Assembly (NCBI GenBank): GCA_019454045.1
Contig: SKCR01021359.1
Location: 35,544 to 99,543 of the forward strand
Reading direction: 5' to 3'
Source: Zanthoxylum bungeanum
Taxonomy: Eukaryota > Streptophyta > Magnoliopsida > Sapindales > Rutaceae
DNA length: 64,000 nucleotides
The notes beneath the pieces were generated by a model. The model did not search any database and had not been told where the DNA came from. It saw nothing but the letters and a program-made list of their open reading frames with translations. A program made the translations under genes and the position numbers. Positions 6,270 to 63,949 of this stretch are shown here, one piece after another; position 1 is the first letter of the stretch, and every line of letters begins with the position of its first letter.

Positions 6270-6272
6270 GAC

Positions 6273-15753: not shown

Positions 15754-19893
<4,140 letters not shown>

Positions 19894-24628: not shown

Positions 24629-25915
24629 TCAAGGAGGTTTCAGCGTCGTTTTGGATGTCCGATTAAAGACAATCCCATGAGCGTTGCTTTTGAAGGGTCT
24701 CTTCCAACGGTAAGGTGGCAAAAAGAGTTTTGTCTCATTCAGTGCTTGTGCTACCTTTTTAAACTTTGTCGCTCCAACAATTCCTGCAAAGAAAGAAAGA
24801 AAATCAGGAGGTCTCGTATGATGCTTGACTTGGAATGGGAGTTCCATTCTGTCAAGCTTCTGGGCGATATCTTTGATTTGTACTCCCCAAAACAGCGATG
24901 TTTCTCCTGAATGCTCTGGATCTTTATTAAGGTCAGACATTTGCTCCTCCATTTGATCTGCTTCTTGTTCCACCTTTTCTTCACAGATGTATTTGAAAAT
25001 TTCTGCATTCAGCTCTTCATCTGTCATCTGTGAAATATATGTTTCAAAATTTTCAACCTGAGGATGTAAAGAAATGTCAGATTTTAGGTCTTCATCCTCT
25101 GATATGACTGGAATGGATGGTTCAGATAGATCTTCTTCAAACATCATGGTAAAACATGCTCCAAGATCTTCATTTTGAGGATTGAAAGTTTGATCCTCCA
25201 TTGTTGGTGCAGTTGGTACAAATAGATCAGTTTCATCCTCGTCAGAATCTGAATAATAAAAGTCAAATTGAGACTTTGCTGGTTCAGGCACCTGAACTGA
25301 TACCTCTGGTTGTTGATACTGCTCAGCCTCTTCCTCTGTTAAAGTGTCATTGTGAAATGATTGGTACTCGAAGGCTTCATCAGTGTCATCTGAAACTGGT
25401 TCTTGAGGTATATAGCTCTGGTTCTCTGTTGATTGCCTCATTTGATCTGTCATATTCTGAATGGATGCTGATTGTCTCTGAATACTTTCAAATTGATTCT
25501 GGCATGTTTCAAGCATTGTATCCAACTTTTCGTCTTGTTTCTTGACCCAATCTTTGAGCATGTCAATCATCTGATCTTCCTCTGATGATTCTGATTGTTG
25601 ATGAAGATCGTAGGTGGATGGTGGATAAGATGGAAAATATGATGGTTCTTCGTACCTTGAATGATTCTGATAATTCTGCCACTCTGAAAGGTAAATACAT
25701 TGATCGCTCGGGTGGTTACCATCACAAATTACACATCTCCCCATTTCGTTCTGATGAGTAAATGTAGAATTGCTTGGTTCAGGCATCCAGTGATAATTGT
25801 TGGGCTGGACAACAGGCCTCAGAAAACCGGACTGTTGCTCCCAGATTTGGGGTGTATATTCTAGTAAAGCTCTTGATCTTTCAATCTCCCAATAATGTTC
25901 CATTTTTTTAATCAC
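24629..25915 (-). CDS. Gag-like protein of LOG-carrying Athila derivative
   Basis: This is an uninterrupted 428-aa ORF immediately after the primer site region. Residues 61-73 form a zinc knuckle, CVICDGNHPSDQC (C-X2-C-X3-H-X4-C), as in Athila nucleocapsids. The middle (about 110-330) is very acidic, with a Gln-rich coiled-coil-like segment. The C-terminus is basic and aromatic (about 350-428, with LPPYRWKRPF and GIVFNRTSKTT). I see no capsid domain of the usual retrotransposon-gag type and no protease. The + strand copy at 56,455 aligns throughout. A nucleic-acid-binding structural protein is likely; the exact function is unknown. A second Met four codons in (MEHYW) is the start shared with the other copy. 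Confidence 0.75.
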   Translation of the reverse strand: MIKKMEHYWEIERSRALLEYTPQIWEQQSGFLRPVVQPNNYHWMPEPSNSTFTHQNEMGRCVICDGNHPSDQCIYLSEWQNYQNHSRYEEPSYFPSYPPSTYDLHQQSESSEEDQMIDMLKDWVKKQDEKLDTMLETCQNQFESIQRQSASIQNMTDQMRQSTENQSYIPQEPVSDDTDEAFEYQSFHNDTLTEEEAEQYQQPEVSVQVPEPAKSQFDFYYSDSDEDETDLFVPTAPTMEDQTFNPQNEDLGACFTMMFEEDLSEPSIPVISEDEDLKSDISLHPQVENFETYISQMTDEELNAEIFKYICEEKVEQEADQMEEQMSDLNKDPEHSGETSLFWGVQIKDIAQKLDRMELPFQVKHHTRPPDFLSFFAGIVGATKFKKVAQALNETKLFLPPYRWKRPFKSNAHGIVFNRTSKTTLKPP

Positions 25916-26034: not shown

Positions 26035-27994
26035 TGACCGGCGTAAACACACACGTATAACGCAAGCGCACGTATCGTTCAAGTAGTATAAAAATATCGA
26101 TCCCACGAGGACTTAATTCCTACTGTTGTTATTAATTATTGATACTATTTATTTACAGGTATCTAATTATAGGGAGAAGGGAATTGATTGCTTTTGGTTG
26201 GTTGAATGTGGTTTTGCAAAAATAAAATAAAAACAGACTCAAAAGAAAATACTAAGGAAAATAAAATAAAAGACTCAAGGATCTAGGGTTTTGACTCCAC
26301 ACAATATTATTATAAAGATGAATTGATTCTCTTATTTATGTGTAATAAATTAATTTGCTAACCTGGAACACGAAAATATGCAAAAGCCTCTGTCGATGGT
26401 CAGACGCAAATACCCAGCATAACCCAATTGAACCATATGTCTATGTCAACCAAATTACCTGGATTCATTAAGATTAAGTTCCAATTATGGCTACCCCCGC
26501 CCGACAGGTATATGTCTATCCTGTAAGGAAATCTATTAAAGGGTTATCTATCCTCAAGGAAGATCGTGAGCTATTGAATCTAAGACTGAAACCTAAAATC
26601 CCTATGTTTAGTTCATTTTAAGTTTACCACATCAATCTTATTGGTGATCAGACAACAAGAAGCATTAGGCTTAAGACTCAATAAACAAACTAAAGAATTA
26701 CCCATAAAAAGAAAATCAATTATTAAGTGTGGATATTGTGTTTCATCATTTCCCTAGAATAAAATAAAATGCTGGGGTTAGAGGATCCACAATTAATATT
26801 TCTTATCTAGGAATCTCACTTATTATAATATATAAATTATTTTATATTCTGCTTTCTCATGAATTAATAATATTAAACATTTAAAACCAGCCATATAGGC
26901 GGCAATCCATTTAGTCCAATTACACCAGCCATATAGGCGGTAATTATCTGTCACATAAAGACCAGCCATATAGGCGGTAAGGTAATTTATATTTAAACCA
27001 GCCATATAGGCGGTAATAAAGTCTGACATTAATTAATCCGGTTAAATTATAATTTAAATATTATAATTAAGTGAGATTTACCTAAATAATTATATTAAAG
27101 GTTTCACCTTTTACCCCAGCGGTAAATTAACTACAAAACATAAAGTAAATAAATAAAAAGTAGTAATAAAAACTAAAAATAAAAATACATAATTTTATTA
27201 TTACAAAACTAGATGCTTCTTATGAAATCAGGGAAAAAATCCCAAGGAAAGCACACCAAATGAAGGGAAGAGGAGCTGAATTTATAGGCAAATTCTGGAT
27301 CCAGCGTCGCGACGCCAAAGGTCTCAGCGTAGCGACGCTGGAATGCGGTTTTGGTCCACGCGGGTTGACCACGCGTGATCTATCAGCAGAATATGGTGAT
27401 GACACATGTCACGCGGTAACGGTGGTGCAATGAGAAGACGACACGTGGCATACGGTGATTGGCTGAGCTTTCGGTCCAATGATCTTCTGACACGTGGCAC
27501 GCGTTTAGGATTGGTCCAATGAGAGATTAACACGTGGCAGCATGTAATTCACCGGTGATTCGGTCCAATGACAACTCGACACGTGGAACGCGCTTACTTG
27601 GTCTAATGAGATTTCAACACGTGACAGACGGTGCATTTTAACTGATCTTCTGTGATGATGATACGTGGCACGGCGCACGTTAGCAAGGTCGGCGCACGTT
27701 AGTAAGTCCAATTTCTCAGATTCAGACACGTGTACCTCGGCGCACATTAGCATGTCCGGCGCACGTTAGGTATCGCGACGCGTAGGGTCCTGGCGTCGCG
27801 ACGCGGCCAAATTACCGAATTGCCCTTTTGTCATTTTTTTCTCTATTTTGGCCCCAAATTGCTTCCAATGCTTTCCCAACTTTATTTATCTGTAAAATAA
27901 CACAAAACACATCAAAACGTTCACAAAAATCAAGAAACTATACAAAATATTAGGTTAAATGAGTGGGAAATAGTGATAGATTTACCACTCATCA
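26035..27994 (-). repeat. 5' LTR of the truncated LOG-carrying element
   Basis: This 1,960-bp LTR reads TGATGAGTGGTAAAT...ACGCCGGTCA on the minus strand. It has a TATA box (TATAAA, 27,281-27,286). Upstream of it, at 27,340-27,740, lie about six CACGTG sites (ACACGTGGCA type), bounded by GCGTCGCGACGC palindromes near 27,303 and 27,795. Four CCAGCCATATAGGCGG units (26,888-27,010) lie downstream of the TATA box. It abuts Tat-type internal sequence at 27,995, so the element probably inserted into that Tat copy. Confidence 0.88.
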
Positions 27995-41979: not shown

Positions 41980-41981
41980 AT

Positions 41982-41999
41982 TGGTATCAAGAGCAAAGG
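41982..41999 (+). other. Primer binding site, initiator tRNA-Met type
   Basis: TGGTATCAAGAGCAAAGG starts two bases after the LTR. It resembles the usual TGGTATCAGAGC with one extra A. Confidence 0.75.
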
Positions 42000-44040: not shown

Positions 44041-44254
44041 ATGTATATGGGGGTGATGGTGAGGTAATTTCAGACGGTGAGGATGTTGCGGAGGAGGTGC
44101 CTGAGTTGGAGGTCACCACTGATGAAGTAGAGGTTGAGTATGCAGCCAAGAGGGAGTCCATTATGACCCGTCGTGCTTTAAGTACCCAGGCCAAGGTTAA
44201 AGATGATATGGTACAACATCGGGAGAACATATTCCATACTAGAACAAGGTATGC

Positions 44255-44612: not shown

Positions 44613-44839
44613 AGTTATAGGCTTCTACAAGGACAACACCAGCGAGCGAGATCGAGAATATGAGTCGAGGGGATGAGGTTAACAGTTCCAGAGGAGTGAG
44701 CGAGAGAAACAATGAGCGTGCATAAAATAATGAGCTTGTGGGTAGAATGAAAAATAGTTTCTTTGCTAAAGAAGGTGAATTGAGAAGAGTATGCCAAGAA
44801 TAAAGTTATGATTTTATTTTTGTATAAAGAAACTCTTCT

Positions 44840-45432: not shown

Positions 45433-48400
45433 TGTTGGGGTTTTAAGGGGTAGTACGGGTAATGCAGCGGAACGGGGAAAATCAAAATTTTCCAAAAAAA
45501 TCTGAATTTTTTTAATTTTAATCATTTTAGTCCTAAGTTGCCGAAAATCTGAATTTTAATCATTTTAGTCCTAGCGGAACGGTTATTTATTTTAATTACT
45601 CAATACTTAAAATCTGAATTTTTTACCTAAGAAATCATATTTCTTCTTAATTGCCGAAAATGCCAAAAACTTTCAATTTTAATCATTTTAGTCCTAAGTT
45701 GTTCAAAACAAACTTAGGTGATTTCCAATCACAACCAAAATAATTTGTACATCAAATATACATGAAAAACAGAATTCTGAAAACGTTTTCCAGATTTTTC
45801 ATTAATTACAGAATTGTCCCAAAACTTTGCATTTTGATTATTTTGGTCCTTAAATTGTCAAATACAATTTTGAATGATTCCAAATGAGTACCAAAGTGAT
45901 TTTAACATGTCATACACATCAAATTATAAATTAAAATTCAAACCCACATTTTACAACAAATGCCGTGAACCCCTCATAGTTTCCAACTTGTGCATTTTAG
46001 TCCAATCTTGTTCGAAACAAGTCAAGATGAAATCCAATCATCACCAAACTTGATATACATCATATATACATCATTACACAACACATATATGAAAATCCTC
46101 AAATTTGGAAAGGGTATAAACCCTAATTTTACAAAACATCAATATGATCAAATTATACCAAATTAAACAAATCCAATGTTTCAATCAAGTCTCTACCACA
46201 CCAAAAAAGTCTCACCATTTTGAAATAACTCTAGAGAAATTCTAGGTCATCAATGAGTGGCCCAAAAACTCTAGAATGGCAACTAGATAATCAAATGATC
46301 AAAAGTGTGCTAATAAACCATTTACAAGCTCACTTTGTTTATATACATGCATACTACTTTCATTCAAGCTTCCAAACCACTTATTACAATATTAAGAGAG
46401 TATAAAAACGTGTGAACAACCTATATTGTAGATAAGAACCCTAGAAATATTTTTCTAGTTGAAGAAAAGTTGAAAAACTTACTTTATAACCAAGTTTTCT
46501 TCAAGTCTTTCTCTAGTTCTTCACTTTTCTCTCAACCTAATCTTTTGTAATATTTGGAGGCTTGGAAAAAGGTTGAAGCAAATATCTTAGAAGTCAAATT
46601 CAATTTGACAACCATTTCTTTTAATGCAAAGTCAAACTTATACATAAAATATTCATTTCCTAACTTTATCATAATGGTAGATATTTATATTTTAATTACT
46701 TTAATTATTTAAAAATTAATTAATTAATTAATTAAATACAAATATCTCAAATATATATATTATATTTACTTTAAATATCTCAAATACATATATTAATGAT
46801 ATATGTCAAATATCATAATTTGATAATTAATTAATGTGTATTTAATAATATCAAATATTAAACACAAATACCCACTAATTAGGAAATGACGGTTCGGCCC
46901 CTAATGCATGTATCTTTCGTTTAACAGTTAAACGAATTATAAATAATCACTATTATTTATAATAGTCGCCTAGTGCTCTACGAGTATATTTCATTAGTGA
47001 GACTCTCTAGATTTAGGCATATCCATCACGAAATCAAATTTCGTGTCCATAATCTACCCACCCGTAAATTATGACGACCAAAGATAAACTAGTTGAATCA
47101 TACAGGTCGATGTCATTGCATACGTATAATCCCTCCGTCACAGGTATTCGGATTATCCCAGAGATATAGATATAAACGTCAAATCTCTATAAGTATAATC
47201 CAGTCGACGTATCTATTAGCAATCTCTAAATAACACTCGAAACTTACTTCCGAAGTATACCACAGCCATGGATTTAACAAATCGCTAATCACATATGGAC
47301 TACCTATGCTCTTGATGAGCGGAAAATTTATCACTATTTACCGCCCCTTTTGACCTAATATTTTGTATGGTTTCTCGGGTTTTATGAACGTTTTGATGTG
47401 TTTTAGTTTATTTTGCAGACAAAATAAAATCGGGACTCAATGGAATCAATCAGGACAAAATATGGAACAAATAAGGGTAAAAACTGGACTTGATATTTTC
47501 ATTTTAGAGGTTGGAAACTTGAAATGGCGTTCTAACGAAGTACAATTTCGGAAATTTCAAATTTGTGTAATTTTCGTATTTTGGCCATAACTTTCTACTC
47601 CGATATCGGATTGAGGTGATTCAAGTTCCAGATTAAAGAAGACTCAAAGATCTACAACTTTGAAGTTCATAATAATTTCGAATTCGGAAGTTTTTCATAA
47701 CCGAAATTGATTAAACATCCTGAAGTGTGTTATGTGTAATTATTAAAATCATTTTCAAAAAAAAATGAAAAAAAAAATAAAAAATGAAAATTGTTTAACT
47801 TCCGCCAAACATGCTTGCATGTTTGGTGGAGGATTTGGTGCCATATTTTGTGCCATGTTCGGTGTCATGTTTGGTGGAGAAATTTGTGGAGGAAATTTTT
47901 TTCCTATAAATACCAAGCCATTTCATTTGTAAATTTCATACTTTCCTTGGTTTCTTGAATAAGAATTAAGGATTGTATCTTGTGTGTTTAATTTAGTAGT
48001 TTGTAATGTATTTTTATTTTCATTTTTAGTAGTAATAACAATTTGAGTGTTTTTATTTTCTTTTATGTTTAATAATTAATTTTTGCTAGAGGAAGGGTGA
48101 AATCTTTAATATGATAAGGTAGATTAATCTCACTTAATTTATAATTTAGAAATTGTAATTTAATAATATGGATTAAAATTGATACCGCCTTAATGGATGA
48201 TTTTATTTATTTGACATAATGTGACACCGCCTATATGGTCGGTCTTTAAGTGACAGATGATTACCGCCTATATGGTTGGTTTATGGACAAATAATAACAC
48301 TGTCTTTATGACTGATTTGACTTAATTGGGTAACACTGATAATTTCTATATTATAATAAAGTGAGATTTCTACATTTGAAATATTAAAGGTGGATCCCCT

Positions 48401-49853
48401 AACCTCAGCACTTTATTTTTATTCTAGGGAAGTGATGAAACACAATATTCACATGCTTAATAATTGATTTAATTATATTATGTTTAATGCTTTAGGTTGT
48501 TTATTGAATCTTAAGCTTAATGCTTCTTGTTTCCTGATCACCAATAAGATTGATGTGGTAAACTTAAAATAAACTTGGAAAAGGGATTTTAGGTTTTAAC
48601 CTTAGATCCAATAGCTCACGATCTCACCTTGGGGTAAAAGCCTCTTAGATAGATTTCCTTACAGGATAGGAATATACCTGTCGGGCAGGGGTAGCCATAA
48701 TTGGAACTTGAACTTAATGAATTTAGATAACTTGGTTAACATAGAAATATGATTAATTGAGTTATTTTGGGTGTTTGCATCTGACCATCGGAAGAGGCTT
48801 TTGCATATCTCCATGTTCCAAGTTAGCAAACTGATTTATTATACATATATAAGAGAATCAATTCACCATTAGAATAATATTGTGTGGAATCATAACCCTA
48901 GATGTTTGTGTCTTTTGTTTATTTTCCTTAGTATTTTCTTTTGTGTTTTTTTTATTTATTTATTTATTTATTTAGCAAATCCACATTCAACCAATCATTC
49001 AAGCAATCATTCTCTTCTCCTTTTAATTAGATACATGTAAATAATTAGAATCAATAATTAATAACAACAATAGAAATTAAGTCCTCGTGGGGTCGATATT
49101 TTTATACTACTTGAGCGATATGTGCGCTTGCGTTACATGTATGATTTCACCGATAAGCTCTGTACACAGAACTGGCAGATCCTATCTTGACACACAGAGG
49201 ATATCTTGAGGATCGATCCACACCCAACGAACAGGCGGAGGTCTGATCTAAATAGATCGGTGACGTGACTGCCATTTAAGTGTGGAGGATGTCTCATACA
49301 TCCACAGTGGTATCTCAAGTCGAAGGACCACTATGCTATTCAACCCGAGAAGATTCTTATTGATGTTGGTGTACCATCCATTAAGAATCTTCGGTGAGTC
49401 GTTCAGTGTTTATCCACTATAAACACCTACACGTCTATACGAGTCTCCCAAGACTCATGGTTCATTGGGATAAACCATCGGACCAAGTCACGATATACGA
49501 TATGTACTGATCTCAACGGATGTAACTAACCGACCCGTGTTAGTAATTCTTGATCATGAACTTTATTTGATAATATATTTCTAGTAGTGACACTTCCCAA
49601 TGTCAATTACAAACTACTTTGTAACTGCGTACTACATTATATATTATCGGGTCTTTGTCTAATATATATATATATATATATATATCACTAAATCAGATTT
49701 AGTTTCAATCTAATAGTAATTAGATCGAATACGTATATAAAAACAAGAGGTGCAACCACTAAAAAAGTAATATTATGGAAAAAAAAGATGCTCGTATTCA
49801 TGAATCGGACATAAATACGATCCGGATTTGTGCTCTGAGCACCAACCCCAGCA
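45433..49853. mobile_element. LTR-like insertion (solo LTR?) in the RT gene
   Basis: Its ends are TGTTGGGG and CCCCAGCA, with the 5-bp duplication TTTTT at 45,428-45,432 and 49,854-49,858. Removing it rejoins the RT reading. Without its own nested insertion it is about 2.57 kb, without coding capacity and without an obvious terminal repeat pair, so a solo LTR of an unclassified family is likely. The related remnant is at 11,500-13,672. A short TTTTAATCATTTTAGTCCTA repeat occurs three times in 45,510-45,700, and an (AT)n microsatellite lies at about 49,660-49,684. Confidence 0.82.
47313..49156 (+). repeat. Athila-type solo LTR
   Basis: This 1,844-bp unit begins TGATGAGCGGAAAATTTATC and is homologous to the other Athila-type LTRs here. 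Shared parts include GACCTAATATTTTGTATGG, the TACCGCCTATATGG units, GGATAGG.ATATACCTGTCGG and CGATATTTTTATACTACTTG. A 5-bp duplication, GCTCT, flanks it (47,308-47,312 and 49,157-49,161). It lacks the CACGTG array of the LOG-carrying elements. A TATA-like CTATAAATACC is at about 47,906. Confidence 0.88.
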
Positions 49854-49858
49854 TTTTT

Positions 49859-50790: not shown

Positions 50791-51918
50791 TTTATTTAAA
50801 GAGAATGAATTGTGTGTGCCTAGTTGTTCTATGAGTGAATTATTGGTCCGTGAAGCACATAGTGGGGGTCTTATGGGTCATTTTGGTGTTACAAAAACTT
50901 TAGATATCTTTCATGAGAAATTTTATTGGCCTAAAATGAATAAAATGTCATACGTATTTATACTGGGTGCATTACTTGTAGGAGAGCAAAATCTAAAGTT
51001 CAACCACGTGGGCTTTATACACCATTACCTGTTCCCCAGGCACCGTGGGTAGATATCTCCATGGATTTTATGTTAGGAATGCCTAGATCTAGGAAGGGCC
51101 GAGACTCTATTTTTGTTGTAGTTGACCATTTTAGCAAGATGTCACACTTTATTGCATGTCACAAATCAGATGATGTCACACACATTGTTGACTTATTTTT
51201 TTTATGAGGTTGTTCGCTTACATGGGGTGCCTCGAAGTATATTATTGGACAGGGATGCTAAGTTTTTAAGTCATTTTTGAAAATTTTTATGGGGAATGCT
51301 GGGAACTAAAATCTTATTTCCACCACTTGTCACCTACAGACTGACGGTCAAATTGAAGTCGTTAACAGAAACATGTCCCAACTATTGCGTAATGTTATTT
51401 CTAAGAATTTGAAGTCCTGTGAAGACTGTTTACATTTCATTGAGTTTGCATATAATCGCAGTATTCATTCCATTACTTCTTATTCTCTTTTTGAAATTGT
51501 GTATGGATTTAACCCACTAACACCTCTGGATTTATTGCCTTGACCCGTTGATGAGAGGGTTAGCCTGGATGGTAAGCGCAAGGTTGACTTGGTCACATCC
51601 ATCCATGAGAAAGCACGAAAACACGTTGAGAAGAAGAATGAACAATATGCCTCGCATGCCAACAAGGGTAGACATCGTGTCTCTTTTGAACCAAGTGATT
51701 GGGTTTGGGTACACATGCGGAAAGAGCGCTTCCCAAAGCAAAGACAGTCCAAACTCCAACCCATAGGCTATGGCCCATTTCAGATTCTTGAGAAAATAAA
51801 TGACAATGCATACAAAGTGGATTTGCAAGGTGAGTATAATGTTTCTGCGTCATTTAATGTTTCTGATCTTTTTTGTTTGATGCAGATTCGAGGTCGAATT
51901 CTTTCGAGGAGAGGATGA
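50790..51918 (+). pseudogene. Chromovirus-like integrase and GPY/F domain
   Basis: The zinc-binding region reads EAHSGGLMGHFGVTKTL and then decays. Core remnants are [51 protein letters not shown] and [18 protein letters not shown], which keep the acidic catalytic residues. Stops and frame shifts separate them. 51,589-51,918 is open and holds the GPY/F domain (SKLQPIGYGPFQILEKINDN, YNVSASFNVSDLF). A shifted frame from 51,873 continues across the LTR border into 52,076. Confidence 0.86.
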
Positions 51919-51919
51919 A

Positions 51920-52677
51920 TGATGAGGCCCAGGATGCAGCCCATGATGGATGGACCACCACAGTGAATGTTCCAGAAGTTCTAATCACGAGGTCTCAACC
52001 TAAGAAGATCCATGAAGCTAGGATGGATTCATACAGAATATTGTATCTGACTATTCCATCACTTCTACTACATTGAGTATGGGCTTGAAGCTGGACGAAC
52101 CCAAGATGGTGAATCTTATTCAGGTCGTGGAGCAACGAAATACTTAGGCCTATTTTATTTAGTTATTTGAAAATTGTTATTACTTTATTTAGGGCTTGGC
52201 ATTTGTTTTATTTCAGCCATTTATTTATGATTTAATGTTTTTTTTCTTTAGATTATTATTTTATGTTTGGGAATTAGGTTAAGCGTGCAATGGTTTGCAC
52301 ATGGGGATAGCTTAGCTTAGTTTTAGGATACGCGCCTGTTGGCGTGTGGGTAGTCTCATCTTTTATTCTTTTGGGTTAGGGTTTTGGTTGAAACCTCCTT
52401 ATAAAAGGCTAACTTTTTGGTTATGTTCAACAACTCTTTTCAATAAAAAAATTACATCAATTTCGTGAACTTTGAGGAACCCTCTATTTGTTCTCACTGG
52501 TTTTTGGCTTATCAAAGGTCTGCTAACCCTTTGTGGCACCCCATTAGCACTCTAGGTTTCTGTTGCTTGTTCTTCAGAGGTTTAGAGTTTTTTTTATCCG
52601 AACTATCTTGGCTTACTTGTGAACGGTTTCAATCTTTTGTGAGTTTGTCTGGCTTTTTTCCAGGCAGGTTCTCATCA
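51920..52677 (+). repeat. 3' LTR of the chromovirus-like element
   Basis: This 758-bp LTR is the partner of 41,218-41,979. TATAAAA lies at 52,400-52,406. The end GTTCTCATCA is followed by the CTTTC duplication. Confidence 0.9.
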
Positions 52678-52682
52678 CTTTC

Positions 52683-52772
52683 GTATCCCGAGCTGATGAT
52701 AGTTGCTTCTGGGGGTGGAATAGAGGATCTAATCTCCAGAGGAGTTACCGAGGTGGATTCAACATCTGACAT
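52683..52772 (-). pseudogene. Gypsy-type gag-like protein, N-terminal 30 codons
   Basis: On the minus strand this begins MSDVESTSVTPLEIRSS and is open to the CTTTC duplication, beyond which the frame continues at 41,217. It is the start of the gag-like gene described at 40,320-41,217. About 390 bp of leader (52,773-53,160), with no recognisable feature, separates it from the family 5 repeat. Confidence 0.65.
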
Positions 52773-53160: not shown

Positions 53161-54245
53161 TGATGAAGTAGAAGACGAGTGAACTCGGTCGGTGGTGAAG
53201 TCTGCTGGTCTCTGAGAACAAAGAAGGAAGTCTTTATTATTTTGAGAGAGAAAGAATTCACAAAAGTGTGGAAGGGTGTTGTGTTCCCCTTTTTATAGAC
53301 GGCTCGGGATGATCTCAGCCGTCAGATCCAATTGAGGGGCTCAGATGGGCTCCACGTGTGCAAGCTCTGATATCACCGGTTCAAATTCAATTGGACTAAC
53401 GAGATTAGGGAGCCATTCAGTTGGCTCAAGGTAAGTCACTTATCTTCGTTTTTGTGGGAATGCCGAGGATGAATGACAAATGTCACGATGGGAATAAAAG
53501 TAGAGGAAATCCTAATGAGATTTGATGGGCATTTAAGGAAATAATGATGACTTATGTTTCCCAATGGACGGTTTTCAAAAAGGACAGAATGGGTATTTGC
53601 AACAGGCCACCAGCATCGTTTGGGTCGATATCAAGAGTTTCCCGATCTGAGCACATGACGATGACACTGCTGACCAGATCAGTTACCGAGCAAGTTTATG
53701 CAGATTCTAAGGAGAGAAACATCGCAAGAATAGCCAGCATCCTCTTCGCCTTTATAGTTCCCGACACTAACTCTCATACTCGTTGGAACTGAGAACAATG
53801 GGACATATATTGATGGTGATTTTTGGGCCTAAGTGTTGACAACGGATCAAGAAGGGTAGTAAGGTAATTTCAAGTTCAGAACACAATAGTCTGAGAACAT
53901 TAGTAAAGGTTATCTGGTCCAGCTGAATGGTCAAGTTCGGTCTATATTCTTCGACCGACCTGGGGAGTGTGATTGTTCACTAATATCAGTATCCGAGGAC
54001 TTCGGATCATGCCCTACCGGTATAGCTCGGAAGGGCGTGATAGTCTCATATCAGTCATTCGACCTCATAGGGGAGGGCGGTTCAGTATTGCTCAGATCGA
54101 TATTACCAGTATAAGCACAGCTCGTGAACTTGCACTCTTCAAAAGCTTAAACGTGACAGGGCAAATTGTGAGGTTATCTTTTGACACACACCATCGAGTG
54201 AACGATTGGATACAGATTGACATCATAATTATAGCGTATGACAGT
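53161..54245. repeat. LTR-like repeat, 'family 5', right copy, first part
   Basis: This is homologous to 23,955-23,000 read in reverse, for example around CTAATGAGATTTGATGGGCATTTAAGG and TATAGTTCCCGACACTAACTC. It is split at 54,246 by the LOG-carrying element and resumes at 62,290. The outer ends TGATGAAG (53,161) and CCGTCATCA (62,779) form a short inverted repeat, suggesting a 1,575-bp LTR. CTATAAAAAGGGG lies on the minus strand at about 53,288-53,300, ahead of the gag-like gene at 52,772, so the repeat may be the 5' LTR of that minus-strand element. Confidence 0.6.
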
Positions 54246-56318
54246 TGATGAGTGGTAATTATATCACTATTTCCCACTCATTTAACCTAATATTTTGTAT
54301 AGTTTCTTGAGTTTTGTGAATATTTTGATGTGTTTTGTGTTATTTTGTAGATAAATAAAGTTTCAGGATATTCTAGAGGTGATTTGGAGCAAAATAGTGA
54401 AAATTGGCAAAAAGGGCAAAATGGTAATTTGTTCACGTCGCGACGCCTAACGTGCGTCGAGTCCTTGCTAACGTGCGCCGGGTCCACGTGTCAGAATTTG
54501 AAAAGTTTGACTTTGCTAACGTGCGCCGTGCCACGTGTCACCATCACAGTTGATTTGATAACGTGCGCCGTGCCACGTGTCATCATCCTACGGTGCCGAC
54601 AATTACCATTGCCACATGTGCCACGTGTCACTCCACGTCACCGCCACGTCATCATCCACATCACCAGTTGACCGAGTCAAAGTGCCACATCACCGCCACG
54701 TCATCATCAACCAATCATAGCGTGCCACGTGTCGCAATCCTACGGTGCCGACACTCCCTTTCGCCACGTCATGCCCACGTCAGTATAATAATTGAGCTCT
54801 CAGTCGCCTTGCCACGTGTCGCCTTATCTCCTTATCCAGAATCGCCACGTGTCAAGCCCTCAGCATGCCACGTCAAAAGAAGCTGGCGTCGCGACGCCCA
54901 GAGCTTATCGAGGCCTATATATTCAGCTCGATGTTTCAGTTTCAAATGTACCATTCTCTCTGAATTCTCTGATGTAAATAGGGAGTTTTCTATCTAGTTT
55001 CTTTTAGTTTTTAGTTTTGTAATTAATTTTAATTACGTTATGTAATAATAGTAATTTACTTTCTTACTTCTTACAGTTTTTACTATTCACCATGAGGAGG
55101 TAACTTCCCCAGCTAGGATGAAAGGTAATTCTTTTACTATTACTATTTAGATTAATCTCCCTTAAAAATAATATATTCACTATTTAAAATATTGACTTAA
55201 AAAGGATACCGCCATATTGGTCGGTTGGTAAATCATTTTAATCTGGTTTAAACCTAACTAATCAAGGATACCGCCAGATTGGTCGGTTGGTAATTAAATT
55301 TTCTTACCGCCTATATGGCAGGTTTATTTTGGTTCCGCCTTTATGGCTGGTTGGACTTAAATTGACTTAATCAGGTTACCGCCTATATGGCTGGTTGGTA
55401 AAATAATCACAAGTTAATATATTATATTAAGGGAGATATCTAAATAGTAAATAGTAAAAGTTGATCCTTTTACCTTAGCATTTTATTTTATTTTACTTTT
55501 CAGCTTTTACTTTATGTCTTTTACTTTTCAGCATTTTTACTTTATGTCTTTTACTTTTAAGTTTTTACTAGCCCTAGTCATGTGTTAGATATATGGGGTT
55601 GTGATGAATTCTAATATCACCGGTTTATAAGGGGTTATTTTATAGTTTGGGTAATTTAAAGGTTTACTTATTAAGTATTAAGCTTAATGTTTCTTGTTGT
55701 CTGATCACCAATAAGATTGATCTGGTAAATCTAAAATGAACTAGACATAGGGATTTTAGGTTTCAGCCTTAGATTTAATAGCACACGATCTTCCTTGAGG
55801 ATAGATAACCCTTTAATAGATTTCCTTACAGGATAGACATATACCTGTCGGGCGGGGGTAGCCATAATTGGAACTTAATCATAATGAATCCAGGTAATTT
55901 GGTTGACATAGACATATGGTTCAATTGGGTTATACTGGGTATTTGTGTCTGACCATCGACAGAGGCTTTCGCTTAATTTCGTGTTCCAGGTTAGTAAACC
56001 GATTTATTACACAAACATAAAATAATCACTTCATCTTTTAAAAGATATTAGAAAGATTCAAAACCCTAGATCTTTGTGTCTTTTGTTATTTTCCTTAGTA
56101 TTTTCTTTTGTCTTTTTAATTATTTATTTATTTAGCAAATCTACAATCAACCAAATCAATCAAGCAATCATTCTCTTCTCCTTCAATTAGATATCTGTAA
56201 ATAAATAGATTCAATAATTAATAACAACAGTAGGAATTAAGTCCTCGTGGGATCGATATTTTTATATTACTTGAACGATACGTACGCTTGCGTTATACGT
56301 GTGTGTTTACGCCGGTCA
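54246..56318 (+). repeat. 5' LTR of the LOG-carrying element
   Basis: This 2,073-bp LTR reads TGATGAGTGGTAATT...ACGCCGGTCA. The CACGTG array lies at about 54,430-54,900, the TATA box CTATATATTC at 54,915-54,924, and TACCGCC(A/T)..TTGGTCGGTTGG units at 55,205-55,400. Confidence 0.92.
54430..54900 (+). promoter_or_regulatory. G-box/ABRE-like array in the 5' LTR
   Basis: At least seven CACGTG cores, mostly as GCCACGTGTCA, plus many CCACGTCA sites lie within 470 bp directly upstream of the TATA box (54,916-54,922). Sites of this type bind bZIP and bHLH factors, for example in abscisic-acid and light responses (family knowledge). The array is bordered by GTCGCGACGCC near 54,440 and GGCGTCGCGACGCC near 54,887. 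Confidence 0.75.
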
Positions 56319-56324
56319 AGTTTT

Positions 56325-56342
56325 TGGCGCCGTTGCCGGGGA
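56325..56342 (+). other. Primer binding site, tRNA-Asp type
   Basis: TGGCGCCGTTGCCGGGGA follows the LTR end by six bases. It is identical to the site in the minus-strand copy at 26,011-26,028. Confidence 0.9.
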
Positions 56343-56454
56343 CTTATTTTTCTTGAGTTATTAATTTTGAAGCTATCTAATTTACTTATATCTAATTTTC
56401 TTTATTTTTATCTGTAATTTTTATTTCTTTCTTTTGTTTTCAGGTGGTTGAAAA

Positions 56455-57705
56455 ATGGAACATTATTGGGAGATTGAAAGATTACGAGCTTTACTAGAAG
56501 AAGATACACCTCAAATCTGGGAGCAACAGTCTGGTTTTCTGAGGCCTGTTGTTCAACCCAACAATTATCACTGGATATCAGAATCAAGCAATACTACATT
56601 TGCTCATCAGAACGAAATGGGGAGATGTGTAATATGTGATGGTAACCACCCGAGCGATCGATGTATATACCTTTCAGAGTGGCAAAATTATTGGAATCAT
56701 TCAAGGTACGAATAACCATCATATTTTCCATCTTATCCATCATCTACCTACGATCTTCATCAACAATCAGAACCATCAGAGGAAGATCAGTTGATTCACA
56801 TGCTCAAAGATTGGTTTGAGGAACGGGAAGCTCAATTTGATGCAAAAATTCAGAGTCAAGCGGCGTCTATACAGAGGATGACAGATCAAGTTAGGCAATT
56901 AACAGATAACCTGAATCTCATATCTCACGGAGCAATCTCAAATACTACTGAAGAAGCCTTCGAATATCCTGAGATTCATCATGACATCATAACAGAGGAC
57001 GAGGCTGAGCAGTATCAAGAATCAGATGTATCAGTTCTGGAGCCCAAACCAGCAAAGTCTCTGTTTGATTTTTATTATTCAGATTCTGATTCTGATGAAG
57101 AAGCTGAGCTATTTGTACAAACTACACCAACAACGGAGGATCAAACTTTCAATCCTCAAAATGAAGATCTTGGAGCATGCTTTACCATGATGTTTGATAA
57201 AGATCTACCTGAACCATCCATTCCAGTCGTATCAGAGGATGAAGACCTAATGTCAGAAACATCTTTACATCCTCAAGTTGACACTTATGGAGCATGTTTT
57301 TCACAGATGACAGATAAAGAACTGAATGAGGAAATCCTAAAATACATATGTGAAGAAAAGGTGGAGCAAGAAGCAGAGCAAAAGGAGGAGCAACAGTTTG
57401 ACCAAATTGAATATCTCAGGCATTCAGGAGAAACATCACTGTTTTGGGGAGTACAGATCAAAGATATCACCCTGAAGCTTGACAGAATGGAACTTCCATT
57501 CCAAGTCAATCACCATACGAGACCTCCTGATTTTATTTCTTTCTTTTCAGGAACCACTGCAGCAACAAAGGTTAAAAAGGTGGCACAAGCACTGAATGAG
57601 ACAAAATTCTTTTTGCCACTTTACCGTTGGAAGAGACCCTTCAAAAGCAACGCTCATGGGATTGTCTTTAATCGGACATCCAAAACAACGTTGAAACCTC
57701 ATTGA
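56455..57705 (+). pseudogene. Gag-like ORF with a single stop codon
   Basis: It aligns along its whole length with the 428-aa ORF at 24,629-25,915. It starts MEHYWEIERLRALLEEDTPQ, keeps the zinc knuckle CVICDGNHPSDRC, the acidic middle and the basic end (LYRWKRPFKSN). A TAA at 56,713-56,715 interrupts it after residue 86, where the other copy has a Glu codon. The frame is otherwise open to 57,705. The downstream piece from the Met at 56,791 (304 aa) has lost the zinc knuckle. As written it is a one-step pseudogene. Confidence 0.8.
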
Positions 57706-58166
57706 CAGATGGATTTCAGTCACGTCTGGCTGAAGACGATAAATTTAGCGCTAGCAGGGAGGCAACCCATGCACTTTGTTGTAATTTCTATTTTCATATT
57801 TTGTGTATACATGTTGTAGAATTTTTAATTTTGTGTGTTATTTTTGTAGGGAAAAGCTCAACCAAAGTATAAGATAGAAGGAATGGTGTTTGGCAAAGAT
57901 AAGAGATGATTCATTAGCGATGGCTGAGTAAGGAATGGATTCTTGAGACGCATCCTAATGGATTTATATACCAAACGAGTGGCGTATTGCGTACACAATT
58001 CTGTTGCCTTAATTATTGCTTTGATTCGCTTTTCTGTTGTAATTATCTTTATTTTCGTAGACAGGATCCAGACTTTTTGACATTTCACGATTTCTTTTGT
58101 TTTGTTTAGCTAACAAACGTCCTATGGAAGATACTAGTGCTATTATTACTCACCCTTTTCAGGTAC

Positions 58167-58172
58167 TATAAA
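58167..58172 (+). promoter_or_regulatory. TATA box before the LOG-like ORF
   Basis: CTATAAATTCAGCCCGTCA begins 64 bp before the ATG and is conserved before the LOG fragment at 24,111. The core CTATAAATTCAGC is also the LTR TATA sequence in the 26,035-27,994 LTR. Confidence 0.6.
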
Positions 58173-58229
58173 TTCAGCCCGTCATTGCACTTTTGAAGGC
58201 ATCCAGATTTGAGAAAGAAATATATAAAA

Positions 58230-58943
58230 ATGGAAGCCACTTCAAGAAGACGAGTTGAAAATATATGTGTGTTTTGCGGTACTAGTGTTGGTACTAATCC
58301 ACAATACGTAGAGGCAGCACAAGAATTGGGTCGAGTCTTAGCTGCAAGGAATATGCACTTAGTATATGGCGGAGGCAATCTTGGACTAATAGGGATCGTT
58401 TCAAAGGCCGTACAGGAAGGAGACAGTCACATTTTGGGAATCATCCCAAAACCATTGGCAGAGGCAAATCTTATTGGATCATCAAACGGAGATGAACTGA
58501 TCGTGCCAGGTATGTCTGAACAATTGGTAGAAATGATTAACCGTGCCGATGCTTTTATTGCTTTGCCAGGTGGCTTGGGCACATTGGAAGAAATTTTTAT
58601 AGTGTTATCTTGGGCGAACCTGAACATACACCAGAAACCAATTGGGTTGTACAACGTTGATGAATTTTATGATTTTCTTTGTGTGTTTCTTAATGATGCT
58701 CGGATAAATGGGTTCGTGTCAAAACCTATGAAAGAACTCCTCTTCACTGCCAGAACTGCTACGGATCTAATAGACCAAATATTAGCCTATGAACCTCAAG
58801 TTGACCATATCCTTTCAAAAATAAATTGGTCCGAGGACGATCGTGGTAAGAGGCGTCGGATTAATCTGGATCTTAACCTTTCATTTCCTGTAGAATTTCA
58901 GCTAACCAGGTATTATCTTCTAAACTCTTCTTCTACTGTTTAA
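58230..58943 (+). CDS. LOG-like cytokinin riboside monophosphate phosphoribohydrolase homologue
   Basis: This is an intact, intronless ORF of 237 codons. LOG enzymes split cytokinin ribotides to release active free-base cytokinins. Seen here: VCVFCGT-type start (ICVFCGTSVG, 12-21), nucleotide motif LVYGGGNLGLIG (44-55), ILGIIPK (68-74) and the signature PGGLGTLEE (113-121). Where plant LOGs have M-x-x-R-K-x-x-M just before the signature, this reads MSEQLVEM (95-102), so the Arg-Lys pair is lost. The C-terminus extends past the fold with GKRRR (206-210) and LDLNL (213-217). The ATG at 58,230 matches the MEATS start of the other copy; an upstream in-frame reading lacks an ATG. Plant LOG genes normally have several introns, so capture through RNA is likely. 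Activity is uncertain. Confidence 0.88.
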   Translation: MEATSRRRVENICVFCGTSVGTNPQYVEAAQELGRVLAARNMHLVYGGGNLGLIGIVSKAVQEGDSHILGIIPKPLAEANLIGSSNGDELIVPGMSEQLVEMINRADAFIALPGGLGTLEEIFIVLSWANLNIHQKPIGLYNVDEFYDFLCVFLNDARINGFVSKPMKELLFTARTATDLIDQILAYEPQVDHILSKINWSEDDRGKRRRINLDLNLSFPVEFQLTRYYLLNSSSTV

Positions 58944-60190
58944 GACATTAGGGACAATGTCTCATTTAGGTTTGGGGGAGGGAATTAGTTGATCAGTACC
59001 TTATTTTTAGTTTGTGTGTTATTTTTATTTTTAGTCCAAAATTTTTCGAAAAATACAAAAAAAATTGAAAATTTTCAAAAATTACAAAAATATTTTGTGT
59101 TTTTGTGTTTTTATTTTGACTAAAAATGTGAAATTGGTAAGAGATAGCTGAGTAAGGAGTTTCCACTCCTGAGACGTATCTCAAACCTATTATTGAAACA
59201 AGTTAGTTTTTGTTTATTTCATTTTAAATTATTTAATTTGTAAATTCTCCATAAAATTGACTAAAATGGATCTTTATATGCTCAGTTGACAGATATTATC
59301 AACATACATGAAACATACAGACATGAGCTATAATTGAAAAGTTTGTAATATTCAGTGCTCTAGTTTAATTGGAGGAAGCATCTCAGAAAGCAATGGAGTA
59401 AAAAAAAAACATATGAGATCCGAGTTATTAAGTCTGTAAGGGTGTTTTAACACCTAGTGCCCTAAAGCCAACTGGTTTGGGAGTCACTGGCCCAAAGCTC
59501 GCTACATGGATCAAAGATGCTGCAAAAATATATATATTTGAAGTCTGAGTAATTAAGTCCGTAGGGGTGTCTTAACACCTGGTGCCCTAAAGCCAACTGG
59601 TTTGAGAGTCACCGACCCAAAGTTCGCTACATAGACGGAAAATATTGTATATAAATAAAAAATAAAAAAAAAATCAAAGAAAAAAATCAGAAAAATCAAA
59701 AATTTATTCCATTGCTGCAAAAAGGTGTGAATTCTGATAAAACTTTAGGACAAAAATATTACTCTCTTATCAATTGCATTTATGACTGTTGTGGGCAAAA
59801 ATGAATTGTTTAATATTTTCTTGGCTGTGTATATAAAGAATGATAAATATAATCGGAGAATTTACTTATTCAGTAATTTAGAATGAAACAAAACAACTAG
59901 TAACTTGGAGTAGAAGTTTCACCTGATTAGTCACTAACTTTTTTATTCTCTTTTCTCTTGTCTTTTTGCTTTTGTGTGTATTAGTTTCACTACCTTTTTA
60001 CTTTTGTAAAATGTTTGTGGGTATCATTGCTGTAAACTCTCACGAGACTACAACTCGTCCACTAGGGACACCTAGGGGTTTAAAGGCTTGTTGCATACGC
60101 TAAATGCAACCGTGATCCCTACGAAAGTGGCTTAGTTAAATTTTATTATGTTATTTTATTGTATTTTGCTCGAGGACTAGCAAAATGTTA
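58944..60190 (+). other. Athila 3' untranslated region with a two-copy hairpin repeat
   Basis: After the LOG stop the sequence has ACATTAGGGACAATGTCTCA and TTAGGTTTGGGGGAG, a motif usual in Athila internal regions. Two copies of a ~100-bp unit at about 59,414-59,515 and 59,540-59,635 share AACACCTRGTGCCCTAAAGC and CCAACTGGTTTG. Each contains the hairpin GGTGTYTTAACACC. No ORF is recognisable. Confidence 0.65.
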
Positions 60191-60202
60191 TGTTTGGGGG
60201 TG
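60191..60202 (+). other. Polypurine tract of the LOG-carrying element
   Basis: TGTTTGGGGGTG directly precedes the LTR start TGATGAG, as in other Athila elements. Confidence 0.85.
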
Positions 60203-62289
60203 TGATGAGTGGTAATTATATCACTATTTCCCACTCATTTAACCTAATATTTTGTATAGTTTCTTGAGTTTTGTGAATATTTTGATGTGTTTTGTGTTAT
60301 TTTGTAGATAAATAAAGTTTCAGGACATTCTGGAGGTGATTTGGAGCAAAACAATGAAAATTGGCAAAAAGGGCAAAATGGTAATTTTTCCGCATCGCGA
60401 CGCCCAAACCCTTGGCGTCGCGACGCCTAACGTGCGTCGAGTCCTTGCTAATGTGCGCCGGGTCCACGTGTCAGAATTTAAAAAGTTTGACTTTGCTAAC
60501 ATGCGCCGTGTCACGTGTCACTATCACAGCTGATTTGATAACGTGCGTCGTGCCACGTGTCATCATCCTACGGTGCCGACAATTACCATTGCCACGTGTG
60601 CCACGTGTCACTCCACGTCACCGCCACATCATCATCCACATCACCAGTTGACCGAGTCAAAGTGCCACGTCACCGCCACGTCATCAGCAACCAATCATAG
60701 CGTGCCACGTGTCGCAATCCTACGGTGCCGACACTCCATTTCGCCACATCACAACCACGTCATGCCCACGTCAGTATAATAATTGAGCTCTCAGTCGCCT
60801 TGCCACGTGTCGCCTTATCTCCTTATCCAGAATCGCCACGTGTCAAGCCCTCAGCATGCCACGTCAAAAGAAGTTGGCGTCGCGACGCCCAGAGCTTATC
60901 GAGGCCTATATATTCAGCTCGATGTTTCAGTTTCAAATGTACCATTCTCTCTGAATTCTCTGATGTAAATAGGGAGTTTTCTATCTAGTTTCTTTTAGTT
61001 TTTAGTTTTGTAATTAATTTTAATTACGTTATGTAATAATAATAATTTACTTTCTTACTTCTTACGGTTTTTACTATTCACCATGAGGAGGTAACTTCCC
61101 CAGCTAGGATGAAAGGTAATTCTTTTACTATTACTATTTAGATTAATCTCCCTTAAAAATAATATATTCACTATTTAAAATATTGACTTAAAAAGGATAC
61201 CGCCATATTGGTCGGTTGGTAAATCATTTTAATCTGGTTTAAACCTGACTAATCAAGGATACCGCCAGATTAGTCGGTTGGTAATTAAATTTTCTTACCG
61301 CCTATATGGCAGGTTTATTTTGGTTCCGCCTTTATGGTTGGTTGGACTTAAATTGACTTAATCAGGTTACCGCCTATATGGCTGATTGGTAAAATAATCA
61401 CAAGTTAATATATTATATTAAGGGAGATATCTAAATAGTAAAAGTTGATCATTTTACCTTAGCATTTTATTTTACTTTTCAGTTTTTACTTTATGTCTTT
61501 TACTTTTCAACATTTTTACTTTATGTCTTTTACTTTTAAGTTTTTACTAGACCTAATTATGTGTTAGATATCTGGGGTTGTGATGAATTCTAATATCACC
61601 GGTTTATAAGAGGTTATTTTATAGTTTGGGTAATTTAAAGGTTTACTTATTAAGTCTTAAGCTTAATGCTTATTGTTGTCTGATCACCAATAAGATTGAT
61701 CGGGTAATTCTAAAATGAACTAGACATATGGATTTTAGGTTTCAGCCTTAGATTTAATAGTCCACGATCTTCCTTGAGGATAGATAACCCTTTAATAGAT
61801 TTCCTTACAGGATAGACATATACCTGTCGGGCGGGGGTAGTCATAATTGGAACTTAATCTTAATGAATCCATGTAATTTGGTTGACATAGACATATGGTT
61901 CAATTGGGTTATACTGGGTATTTGTGTCTGACCATCGACAGAGGCTTTCGCTTAATTTCGTGTTCCAAGTTAGTAAACCGATTTATTACACAAACATAAA
62001 ATAATCACTTCATCTTTTAAAAGATATTAGAAAGATTCACAACCCTAGATCTTTGTGTCTTTTGTTATTTTCCTTAGTATTTTCTTTTGTCTTTTTATTT
62101 ATTTAGCAAATCTACAATCAACCAAATCAATCAAGCAATCATTCTCTTCTCCCTCAATTAGATATTTGTAAATAAATAGATTCAATAATTAATAACAACA
62201 GTAGGAATTAAGTCCTCGTGAGATCGATATTTTTATACTACTTGAACGATACATACGCTTGCGTTATACGTGTGTGTTTACGCCGGTCA
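60203..62289 (+). repeat. 3' LTR of the LOG-carrying element
   Basis: This 2,087-bp LTR nearly matches 54,246-56,318. The array at about 60,385-60,890 has eight CACGTG cores and retains two GGCGTCGCGACGCC-type palindromes where the 5' LTR has lost some sequence. The TATA box is at 60,907-60,913. Confidence 0.92.
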
Positions 62290-62779
62290 ATAGTACCCAA
62301 ACAGAGTGATTTAATGAAATGTCAGATGACAGGTTTTACTTTCGGCAGTGGCAGGTTTTACTTTCGGTAGATATAGGCTCACGTGGCTGATGTCACGAGG
62401 ATGGTGGAACAATGATTATTTTCCTTTGTATTTAAAGAGGTTGAAAACACTTTTGTAAGTGTTAGAAAAGTTAAATTCAAGCATTACTTGTAAGAATCGA
62501 GAGAATACAGAATCTCGACCATACCCGACAACCTGTAAAAAGAGGTCGGCTAAACCCGACCAAATTATAAAATCAGTCTTTTTCTTTGTGTCCGTGGACG
62601 TAAGTTGGATCCATTCCGCCGAATCACGTTATATCGTCTGTTCTTATCTATGTGTTTTTCATTTTTCCGCTAAGTTTGCTTTTGGTTCCCAACAAACCAA
62701 ACAAATTCACAATTAGAGGAAGATTATTCGAGAAGCGAGTTTCCGAATTTCTCCCTAAAATAAAAATCGACCGTCATCA
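62290..62779. repeat. LTR-like repeat, 'family 5', right copy, second part
   Basis: This continues 54,245 after the LOG-carrying element. It contains GTATTTAAAGAGG (62,428-62,440) and the block GTCCGTGGACGTAAGTTGG followed by CCGCCGAATCACGT, shared in reverse with the left copy. It ends CCGTCATCA at 62,779. The ORF at 62,459-62,716 has no recognisable product. Confidence 0.6.
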
Positions 62780-63017: not shown

Positions 63018-63113
63018 ATGAATATATCTAATCTAACCTTTCCTCTTTATCTTTACCAATTATTAATATTTCAGAACACATTTAATAATTAAAAGAGTGT
63101 GTAAAAAAAAAAA

Positions 63114-63949
63114 ATGCAGAGAGAGAATAAAAATCACGCAACTCTGGTATTACAATCAGCTCTGCTCTGCTTTTTCATTTTCAATTTATGCTTTGCACAA
63201 TCCCAGTCGTTGCCGCCGGCGAAACACGATGGGTTCGCGTACACGAAGCACCCCGTTGACTCTGACACCATCATCATCGAAGCGTTCTTTGACCCTGTCT
63301 GCCCCGATAGCAGGGACGCGTGGCCACCTCTCAAACAAGCCCTTCATTATTACGGCCCTCACGTTTTCCTTGTGCTTCATCTCTTGCCGTTACCGTTAGT
63401 AATTCTTACTTTATTGTTTCATATACAATTCAAATTTTTATATTATCACGGCTGGCGATTTTGGGAGCAATTTCAATTGAATGTCAATTTTGTTTCCTTT
63501 ATTATTTATCCCAACGCAACTTAATCTTACGGTAAAAATTACCTGAAGATGTTAAAATTTTGAAGATAAATTCATACATATCGTGTCAATCCAATTTTTA
63601 AAAAGCATAACTCGTGAATACGATTCATGTCGGATGGGGCCAATTTTTTAAATTTGTACGCCCTTATCTTAAAGCTCTTGTTTTTTCAACTTGAGAAATT
63701 TTACTGACTCAATTATTTATTTAATTTTGAGAAGTACTAAAGAGATTAAAAATGGATTAAATAGAGATTAACCATTGGAATGAACAACATAAAGCTAGAG
63801 CTTGCAACCAGTGGAATGAACTGATACTTTCTTTTGATAATTGCAGTTACCATGACAATGCATATGCTACTTCTCGTGCATTGCACATTGTAAACAGGGT
63901 TAATTCTTCTGCTACATTCTGCTTGTTGGAGTGGTTCTTTAAACATCAG
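63114..63949 (+). CDS. Secreted thioredoxin/DsbA-like protein, first two exons
   Basis: Exon 1 is 63,114-63,394 (donor GTTAGT) and exon 2 is 63,847-63,949 (acceptor TTGCAG, donor GTTGGA). Together they give 128 codons, with more exons expected beyond the window. Residues 1-28 form a signal peptide with the hydrophobic core LVLQSALLCFFIFNLCFA, so the protein should enter the secretory pathway. The thioredoxin-type active site is in EAFFDPVCPDSRDAWPPLK; the motif CPDS (63-66) has only one Cys where DsbA and thioredoxin have CxxC. LHLLPLPYHDNAY spans the splice site and ALHIVN follows. It resembles Arabidopsis proteins annotated only as thioredoxin superfamily (AT1G76020/AT1G20225, from memory). 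Function is unknown. It appears intact. Confidence 0.88.

Follow-up and report, generated by a model that had tools for sequence, protein, structure and literature searches.

The 64,000-nucleotide stretch of Zanthoxylum bungeanum contig SKCR01021359.1 analysed here, referred to below as the window, contains nested long terminal repeat (LTR) elements at high density. One of these, at positions 54246-62289, is an apparently pol-less and thus presumably non-autonomous LTR retrotransposon, putatively of the Athila type, and between its LTRs it carries an open reading frame (ORF) related to the cytokinin-activating LOG enzymes of plants. With a probability of about 0.5, this cargo is a long-kept accessory gene that derives from a plant LOG enzyme and whose function has since changed. 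That the cargo family has a function both changed and conserved, as its residue patterns suggest, is somewhat better founded than doubted. A LOG cargo as such is of a known kind; for the altered pocket of the cargo family and its C-terminal tail, no published account was found in the open-licence full texts searched.

The descent of the cargo was assessed by profile searches and structure prediction. The LOG-type ORF matched PF03641 (E 2.3e-31) and TIGR00730 (160.8 bits, cut-off 96.35), and its PGGLGTLEE agrees with the PGGxGTxxE motif. An AlphaFold2 model of the protein (mean predicted local distance difference test score, pLDDT, 80; predicted template modelling score, pTM, 0.77) had AtLOG3 as its top match in the PDB (2a33_B, TMt 0.94); residues 204-237, which include the tail, had a pLDDT below 50 and are predicted to be disordered. 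Like the canonical plant LOGs AtLOG3 (2a33) and AtLOG8 (1ydh), to which it is 46% and 41% identical in structural alignment, the cargo has the fold, PGGxGTxxE and the catalytic Glu, whereas its family differs from them by the replacement of His97, Lys100 and Glu125 and by its LxLxL end. Judged by these features the window cargo is of LOG descent; it is not claimed to be a working LOG. The NCBIfam equivalog NF058542 gave 106.7 bits for the window cargo at a cut-off of 300, and was dropped as evidence on enzyme status because three canonical plant LOG controls (116.2, 132.4 and 126.1 bits) were also below the cut-off.

Two sets of proteins were aligned: the tail family (our label), comprising the best 120 of 7175 matches from 8000 candidates scored, and a canonical set, comprising the best 120 of 7998 matches in a search started from two Arabidopsis LOG pieces. 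Residues are numbered according to C. glutamicum LOG, in which Arg99 and Glu122 are the proposed catalytic residues, Met96, Lys100 and Glu121 lie at the adenine, and His97, Lys100 and Glu125 are placed in the adenine/prenyl site (PMC4979012). Arg99 was kept in 107, Glu122 in 117 and Trp129 in 117 of the 120 tail-family proteins, compared with 120/120 canonical proteins in each case, and Arg99 and Glu122 were both present in 105. PGGxGTxxE was retained in the window cargo and 103/120 relatives. In contrast, Lys100 and Glu125 were each kept in 16/120 and His97 in 39/120 tail-family proteins, vs 120/120 canonical proteins for all three. Since Lys100 and Glu125 were retained in exactly the same 16 proteins, the two were lost together; Arg99, Lys100, Glu121, Glu122, Glu125 and Trp129 were all retained in 15 relatives. 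By alignment, most of the tail family has other residues on the cytokinin side of the pocket, while the hydrolytic Arg/Glu pair has largely been retained. The window protein itself carries Met, Ser, Leu, Ile and Trp at the positions of Met96, His97, Lys100, Glu125 and Trp129 so that three of these five prenyl/adenine-site residues are replaced, and with Gln and Glu at positions 99 and 122 its proposed catalytic pair is incomplete. Gln replaces Arg99 in 11/120 relatives as well, and His or Cys in two more. The notion that the cargo family is devoid of both the Arg and the Lys of the RK pair was rejected, as the alignment shows the Arg to be present in most relatives and absent from the window copy.

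The second distinguishing feature is the C-terminus. An LxLxL within the last 12 residues was found in 79/120 relatives and in none of the 120 canonical proteins sampled, the window protein carrying LDLNL, and 78 of the 79 LxLxL-bearing relatives have a basic pair in their last 20 residues. A looser pattern, a basic run followed by alternating hydrophobics, was present in 90/120 relatives vs 0/120 canonical proteins, and the basic cluster alone in 100/120 vs 1/120. Among the less redundant relatives used for the tree described below, 29/39 carry LxLxL. Over the 36 derived tree rows, the three tail Leu columns had entropies of 0.77, 0.38 and 0.51 bits, compared with 1.92 and 2.45 bits for the columns between them, 2.2-3.0 bits for the linker (residues 202-206) and a core mean of 1.13 bits; Lys207, Lys208, Asp212, Leu213, Leu215 and Leu217 were below 0.9 bits, and Arg209 and Lys/Arg210 were at 1.2-1.3 bits. 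Column by column, the conservation of the tail resembles that of a short motif. EAR motifs have the form LxLxL or DLNx(x)P and occur most often at the C-terminus (PMC9956375), and the form of the tail suggests a nuclear signal joined to an EAR co-repressor motif. A C-terminal LxLxL is shared with EAR-motif repressors and EAR-bearing pathogen effectors; however, the EAR repressor family is defined by tested transcriptional repression (PMC9956375), whereas in the cargo an enzyme fold bears the putative motif.

A tree was calculated from the window protein, 39 of the 120 relatives (non-redundant, from 94 of suitable length), 10 of the 120 canonical LOGs (from 103) and, as outgroup, B. subtilis YvdD. 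The 40 tail-family rows were all placed on one side of a branch with a support of 99/97, apart from the 10 canonical LOGs and the outgroup. Within this clade Xanthoceras P0063 and P0105 branch first, followed by P0034 and P0053. Lys100 and Glu125 are present in all four of these early branches, and Lys100 is lost in the window protein and the 35 other relatives, which amounts to one change on the tree (3 canonical rows were left unscored by the pattern). The relatives are mostly ~48-65% identical to the window protein. The best 120 include 8 rows from Reevesia, spread across 6 linkage-group names, and 11 from Xanthoceras, whose name prefixes suggest several assemblies, so that some may be alleles. 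In searches of the window only, the peptide upstream of LOG in P0010 matched the DNA just upstream of both window LOGs (E 6.5e-6 and 2.3e-5), and so did that of P0009 (E 6.7e-5 and 6.2e-4), which links both proteins to elements of this type; the upstream region of Xanthoceras P0087 gave no significant match to the window (E 3.4). For the other relatives, the clade, the multiple copies in Reevesia and Xanthoceras and the literature suggest that they belong to elements. No relatives were found in the viral contigs searched with the window LOG or in the bacterial and archaeal contigs searched with P0001. Xanthoceras P0006, P0015, P0021, P0022 and P0040 are tandem two-copy LOG fusions with predicted proteins of 290-406 residues, and the tail-family members P0045, P0050 and P0055 from Populus were deposited as 'probable cytokinin riboside 5'-monophosphate phosphoribohydrolase LOGL10'.

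The window harbors a second element of this kind (copy 2), which runs on the minus strand from 27994 down to 23956 and allowed a comparison of cargo and chassis. Over the 52 LOG codons common to both copies, nonsynonymous change (dN) was 0.21 and synonymous change (dS) 1.58, which is near saturation, with a ratio of 0.13, while the gag-like ORFs gave dN 0.12, dS 0.25 and a ratio of 0.49 over 413 codons. These values support the original prediction in so far as the cargo lineage is under constraint. Synonymous change affected 24/37 sites in LOG vs 53/247 in gag (Fisher p 2.4e-7). Since it is so far above that of gag in LOG, the two elements being simple copies of one element was rejected, and the two cargoes have different histories. 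In agreement, the two cargoes are 67% identical to each other, the first being nearest to P0001/P0002 (90% over 51 residues) and the second to P0009/P0010/P0014 (94%). The 3' half of the LTR, the leader, the gag-like ORF and the spacers are 85-96% identical between the elements, and identity falls to 77% immediately upstream of LOG and to 70% within it. The chassis itself is mosaic, because the front part of the LTR has diverged as well (64-66% identical), and several blocks may have been exchanged between elements. The simplest account would be that related elements swapped the cargo by recombination, an outcome expected from template switching.

The anatomy of the first element (Table 1) is held with high confidence. 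Both of its LTRs open with TG and close with CA, and together with a primer-binding site, a polypurine tract and a target-site duplication matching at 4/5 positions they identify an LTR retrotransposon, as the original prediction had it for an LTR-flanked LOG cargo. The primer site, the CX2CX3HX4C gag knuckle and an extra ORF between the position of pol and the 3' LTR are present, which we take to be marks of Athila elements. Sixteen internal stop-to-stop ORFs of at least 60 amino acids were obtained, and 15 of them were scanned against Pfam, the one left out (58298-58495) overlapping LOG out of frame. No protease, reverse transcriptase, RNase H or integrase was detected in these 15 ORFs between the LTRs, although decayed remains could escape such a scan, and the predicted absence of pol was confirmed to this extent. 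Because LOG was the sole Pfam match, the element is taken to be non-autonomous. The LTR pair aligned with 52 mismatches over 2053 sites and 5 gap openings. With 1.3e-8 substitutions per site per year, the rate of grasses, this would date the insertion to about 1 million years ago, and it could be several times older in a tree species that evolves slowly.

Three further predictions held in part. The gag-like ORF exists and has five relatives when the ORF of copy 2 is used as query, but it is interrupted by one stop, and with no Pfam gag domain found, CX2CX3HX4C is the sole sign of a gag. The LOG homologue, described as complete, forms a single open frame with PGGLGTLEE, but its Arg99 codon reads Gln and its stop is lost, adding a 20-residue extension. 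The second element does repeat the order LTR, leader, gag-like ORF, spacer and LOG start, but its LOG similarity extends over the first ~51 codons only, and a 3' LTR was not found for it within the window; no pol was detected in its two ORFs that were scanned against Pfam. An intact cargo beside a broken gag had been read as a hint of selection. This argument fails, as the cargo of the first copy carries lesions and copy 2 presents the reverse situation with an open gag and a broken cargo. The first copy is a decaying and probably inert member of its family.

Table 1. Features of the LOG-carrying element, of the second element and of other LTRs of the family, in window coordinates.
Feature	Position	Strand	Remark
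Candidate 5' target-site duplication, ACAGT	54241..54245	+	flanking 5-mer
5' LTR, 2073 bp, TG...CA	54246..56318	+	
Primer-binding site, TGGCGCCGTTGCCGGGGA, after the 5' LTR	56325..56342	+	from sequence
gag-like ORF with CVICDGNHPSDRC knuckle	56455..57705	+	one in-frame stop (ends 56715)
Pyrimidine tract ending in CAG (acceptor-like), then 13-mer CTATAAATTCAGC	58148..58178	+	putative TATA/acceptor role
LOG-type ORF, 237 codons and stop	58230..58943	+	single open frame
CAA (Gln) codon at the proposed catalytic Arg	58521..58523	+	Arg99, C. glutamicum LOG numbering
Tail KRRRINLDLNL (basic stretch and LxLxL)	58848..58880	+	conserved family end
TCA where close relatives stop after LDLNL	58881..58883	+	20-residue read-on
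Two tandem 125-bp units, 80% identical	59400..59649	+	spacer between LOG and 3' LTR
Polypurine tract (G-rich), directly 5' of the 3' LTR	60192..60202	+	from sequence
3' LTR, 2087 bp	60203..62289	+	
3' flank, ATAGT	62290..62294	+	4/5 positions equal to ACAGT on the other side
Second element, 5' LTR	26035..27994	-	
Second element, gag-like ORF	24629..25903	-	uninterrupted, ATG at 25903
Second element, LOG-type ORF, first ~51 codons	23957..24111	-	different sub-lineage
LTR of the same family, ~79-83% identical where aligned	47313..49143	+	solo-LTR-like, nested in another element
Short LTR-like stretch	11190-11481		

Both copies have the acceptor-like CAG and CTATAAATTCAGC immediately upstream of the cargo. 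CTATAAATTCAGC also occurs within the LTRs, with 1 mismatch in those of copy 1 and 0 in those of copy 2, and 8 matches with at most 2 mismatches were counted in the window vs 2.2 expected. The LTR copies are taken as a putative TATA box. A common promoter origin is not claimed from CTATAAATTCAGC, as by eye the similarity ends at the edges of the 13-mer.

These features can be combined into a provisional scheme for the cargo. Expression of the cargo would start either in the LTR, with subsequent splicing, or at the internal TATA-like site, and reverse transcriptase and integrase would be supplied in trans by related elements. The protein retains the LOG fold and, in most of the 120 relatives, the Arg/Glu pair, with other residues on the cytokinin side of the pocket, as the alignment shows. 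Its disordered tail could then lead it into the nucleus via the basic cluster and to TOPLESS-type co-repressors via LxLxL, as the motif would have it. The new task of the cargo family is probably nuclear, and a co-repressor mechanism, tentative as it is, is the leading candidate for it. In an equally conjectural elaboration, the LOG dimer would become a two-tailed nuclear scaffold that recruits TOPLESS for the element, its pocket might sense another nucleotide, and the module would be exchanged between chassis. The element might benefit, speculatively, by damping host responses or by tuning its own transcription.

The abstract of Steinbauerova et al. 2011 (Genetica 139:1543) is said to name two Athila-like elements similar to LOGL4. 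Among LTR-retrotransposon consensus sequences, Alvarado-Marchena et al. 2022 reported a LOG domain, termed 'YgdH', for Citrus sinensis and C. clementina and, under a laxer filter, for P. trichocarpa, and described this as 'in line with' the 2011 report (PMC9289625). The elements of that survey have the same LOG-domain extra ORF within an LTR retrotransposon. A LOG cargo was therefore already known from Citrus and poplar, and the original prediction that it is unusual is not supported in the sense of its being unreported. The changed pocket, the basic/LxLxL tail, the exchange of cargo between chassis and a pol-less carrier go unmentioned in the available portions of the 2022 text, and pol-less elements would escape the survey, as reverse transcriptase is its marker (PMC9289625). 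Within the accessible parts of the open-licence full-text literature, no account of the tail or the pocket in a retrotransposon LOG was found. A further parallel comes from orchids, where Gypsy elements encode an m6A demethylase of the AlkB type; in this case too an extra ORF derived from an enzyme has become fixed in a Gypsy lineage of plants, and the authors suggest that it acts on element or cellular RNA (PMC9289625). The activity of the orchid enzyme was demonstrated in vitro (PMC9289625), whereas the active site of the LOG cargo looks repurposed.

Several observations weigh against a long-kept accessory gene with a changed function. The canonical set was built from two queries and is, by names, mainly LOG1/3/4/8-like, LOG2/5/7 types not having been sought, and the search for relatives lists intact frames, which favours conserved members. 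Only the two window copies were seen inside LTR elements, P0009/P0010 being linked by short upstream peptides. The strict LxLxL end is absent in 41/120 relatives and 10/39 tree rows, the members without it including an LDIDLNR group, a Xanthoceras KKRRLA / KKRKLA group and fragments. Similarly, 29 of the 107 proteins with the late Trp lack the strict LxLxL, many ending in KKRKLDIDLNR, KKRRLA or KRRRLD and some being fragments or fusions. Even with the loose pattern, the tail requires 4 changes on the tree and not 1. Since LxLxL is short and common, the link to TOPLESS comes down to motif, position and conservation alone.

Alternatively, the element might spread a LOG that still activates cytokinins; cells that divide or form the germline could profit from this, and with them transposition. 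The retained fold, PGGxGTxxE (window and 103/120) and Arg99/Glu122 pair (105/120) speak for such an enzyme, as do the basal P0063, P0105, P0034 and P0053, which keep Arg99, Lys100, Glu121, Glu122, Glu125 and Trp129. It is nevertheless unlikely, given that Lys100, His97 and Glu125 are replaced in 104, 81 and 104 of the 120 relatives, that alanine changes in the adenosine monophosphate site of C. glutamicum LOG, S19A excepted, almost completely abolished activity (PMC4979012), and that the window copy has Gln for Arg99. A plain hormone gene was rejected on account of the changed pocket, and the proposed spread of a hormone-biosynthesis gene is not supported: the pocket residues are replaced in most relatives and the window copy lacks the proposed catalytic Arg.

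We likewise see a low chance that the tail-bearing clade represents a normal subfamily of plant genes with a nuclear role of its own, captured more than once by Athila-type elements. The gene-style names (LOGL10) of the three Populus proteins fit this explanation, as does the small number of clade members seen inside elements here, and if both cargoes had been captured separately, their low dN/dS would mirror selection in the host. The shared clade argues against separate capture, as it unites the window cargo and the element-tied P0009/P0010 without any canonical row; further points against are the many similar copies in Reevesia and Xanthoceras (some of the latter may be alleles) and the LOG domain in the Citrus and poplar LTR-element consensuses (PMC9289625). 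The improbable extreme is a functionless LOG retrocopy, captured, amplified by chance and now decaying. LTR retrotransposons are documented to capture host genes (PMC7264820), and the Gln at Arg99, the lost stop and the broken gag of the window copy, as well as the truncated LOG of copy 2, would be in line with decay. Arguments against such a passenger are the dS of 1.58 vs the dN of 0.21 between the two cargoes, the tail and active-site columns conserved across relatives as distant as those described above, and the single Lys100 loss common to a whole clade. We therefore favor an accessory gene of changed function. If its tail works as the sequence suggests, a transposon would use the co-repressor system of plants via a protein derived from a hormone enzyme. 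An additional protein domain that has become fixed is regarded as rare among plant retrotransposons (PMC9289625), and elements in which it also has a readable origin and a testable function are fewer still. For annotation, clade members deposited as LOG genes, such as LOGL10 of poplar, could be miscounted as hormone genes in surveys of the LOG family, and this name likely misleads should the Populus members be genes of retrotransposons that lack the cytokinin pocket.

The remainder of the window contains further mobile and genic sequences. The solo-LTR-like copy (Table 1), beside which no matching internal region was found, lies within another element (41218-52693) with direct ends at 41218-41994 and 51920-52693 that are 90% identical. 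This enclosing element has scattered pieces of gag, an RT-like (reverse-transcriptase-like) sequence, RNase H (50347-50799, Pfam) and an integrase end, recognised by eye. The RNase H ORF at 50347 was rejected as the pol of the LOG-element family, as its position suggests that it belongs to this different nested element. The stretches 12317-12969 and 12972-13667 are nearly continuous and their counterpart (46684-47309 / 49161-49848) is split by the solo-LTR-like copy, which would thus be a later insertion. Direct repeats at 587-2939 and 6272-8801 are ~98% identical at a spacing of ~5.7-5.9 kb and possibly represent another pol-less LTR element family; tandem repeats inside this pair (4.1-5.1 kb) resemble an inverted stretch at 31.9-37.9 kb. 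About 0.8 kb downstream of the 3' LTR of the LOG-carrying element, the start of a probable host gene, with a signal-peptide-like beginning and FFDPVCPDSRDAWPPLKQAL, lies at 63097-63524, without a Pfam match. Exons of a probable calcium-dependent protein kinase gene are located at 15764-19893 on the minus strand, with PF00069 in 19195-19893 and, by eye, EF-hand-like pieces at 15764-16737.

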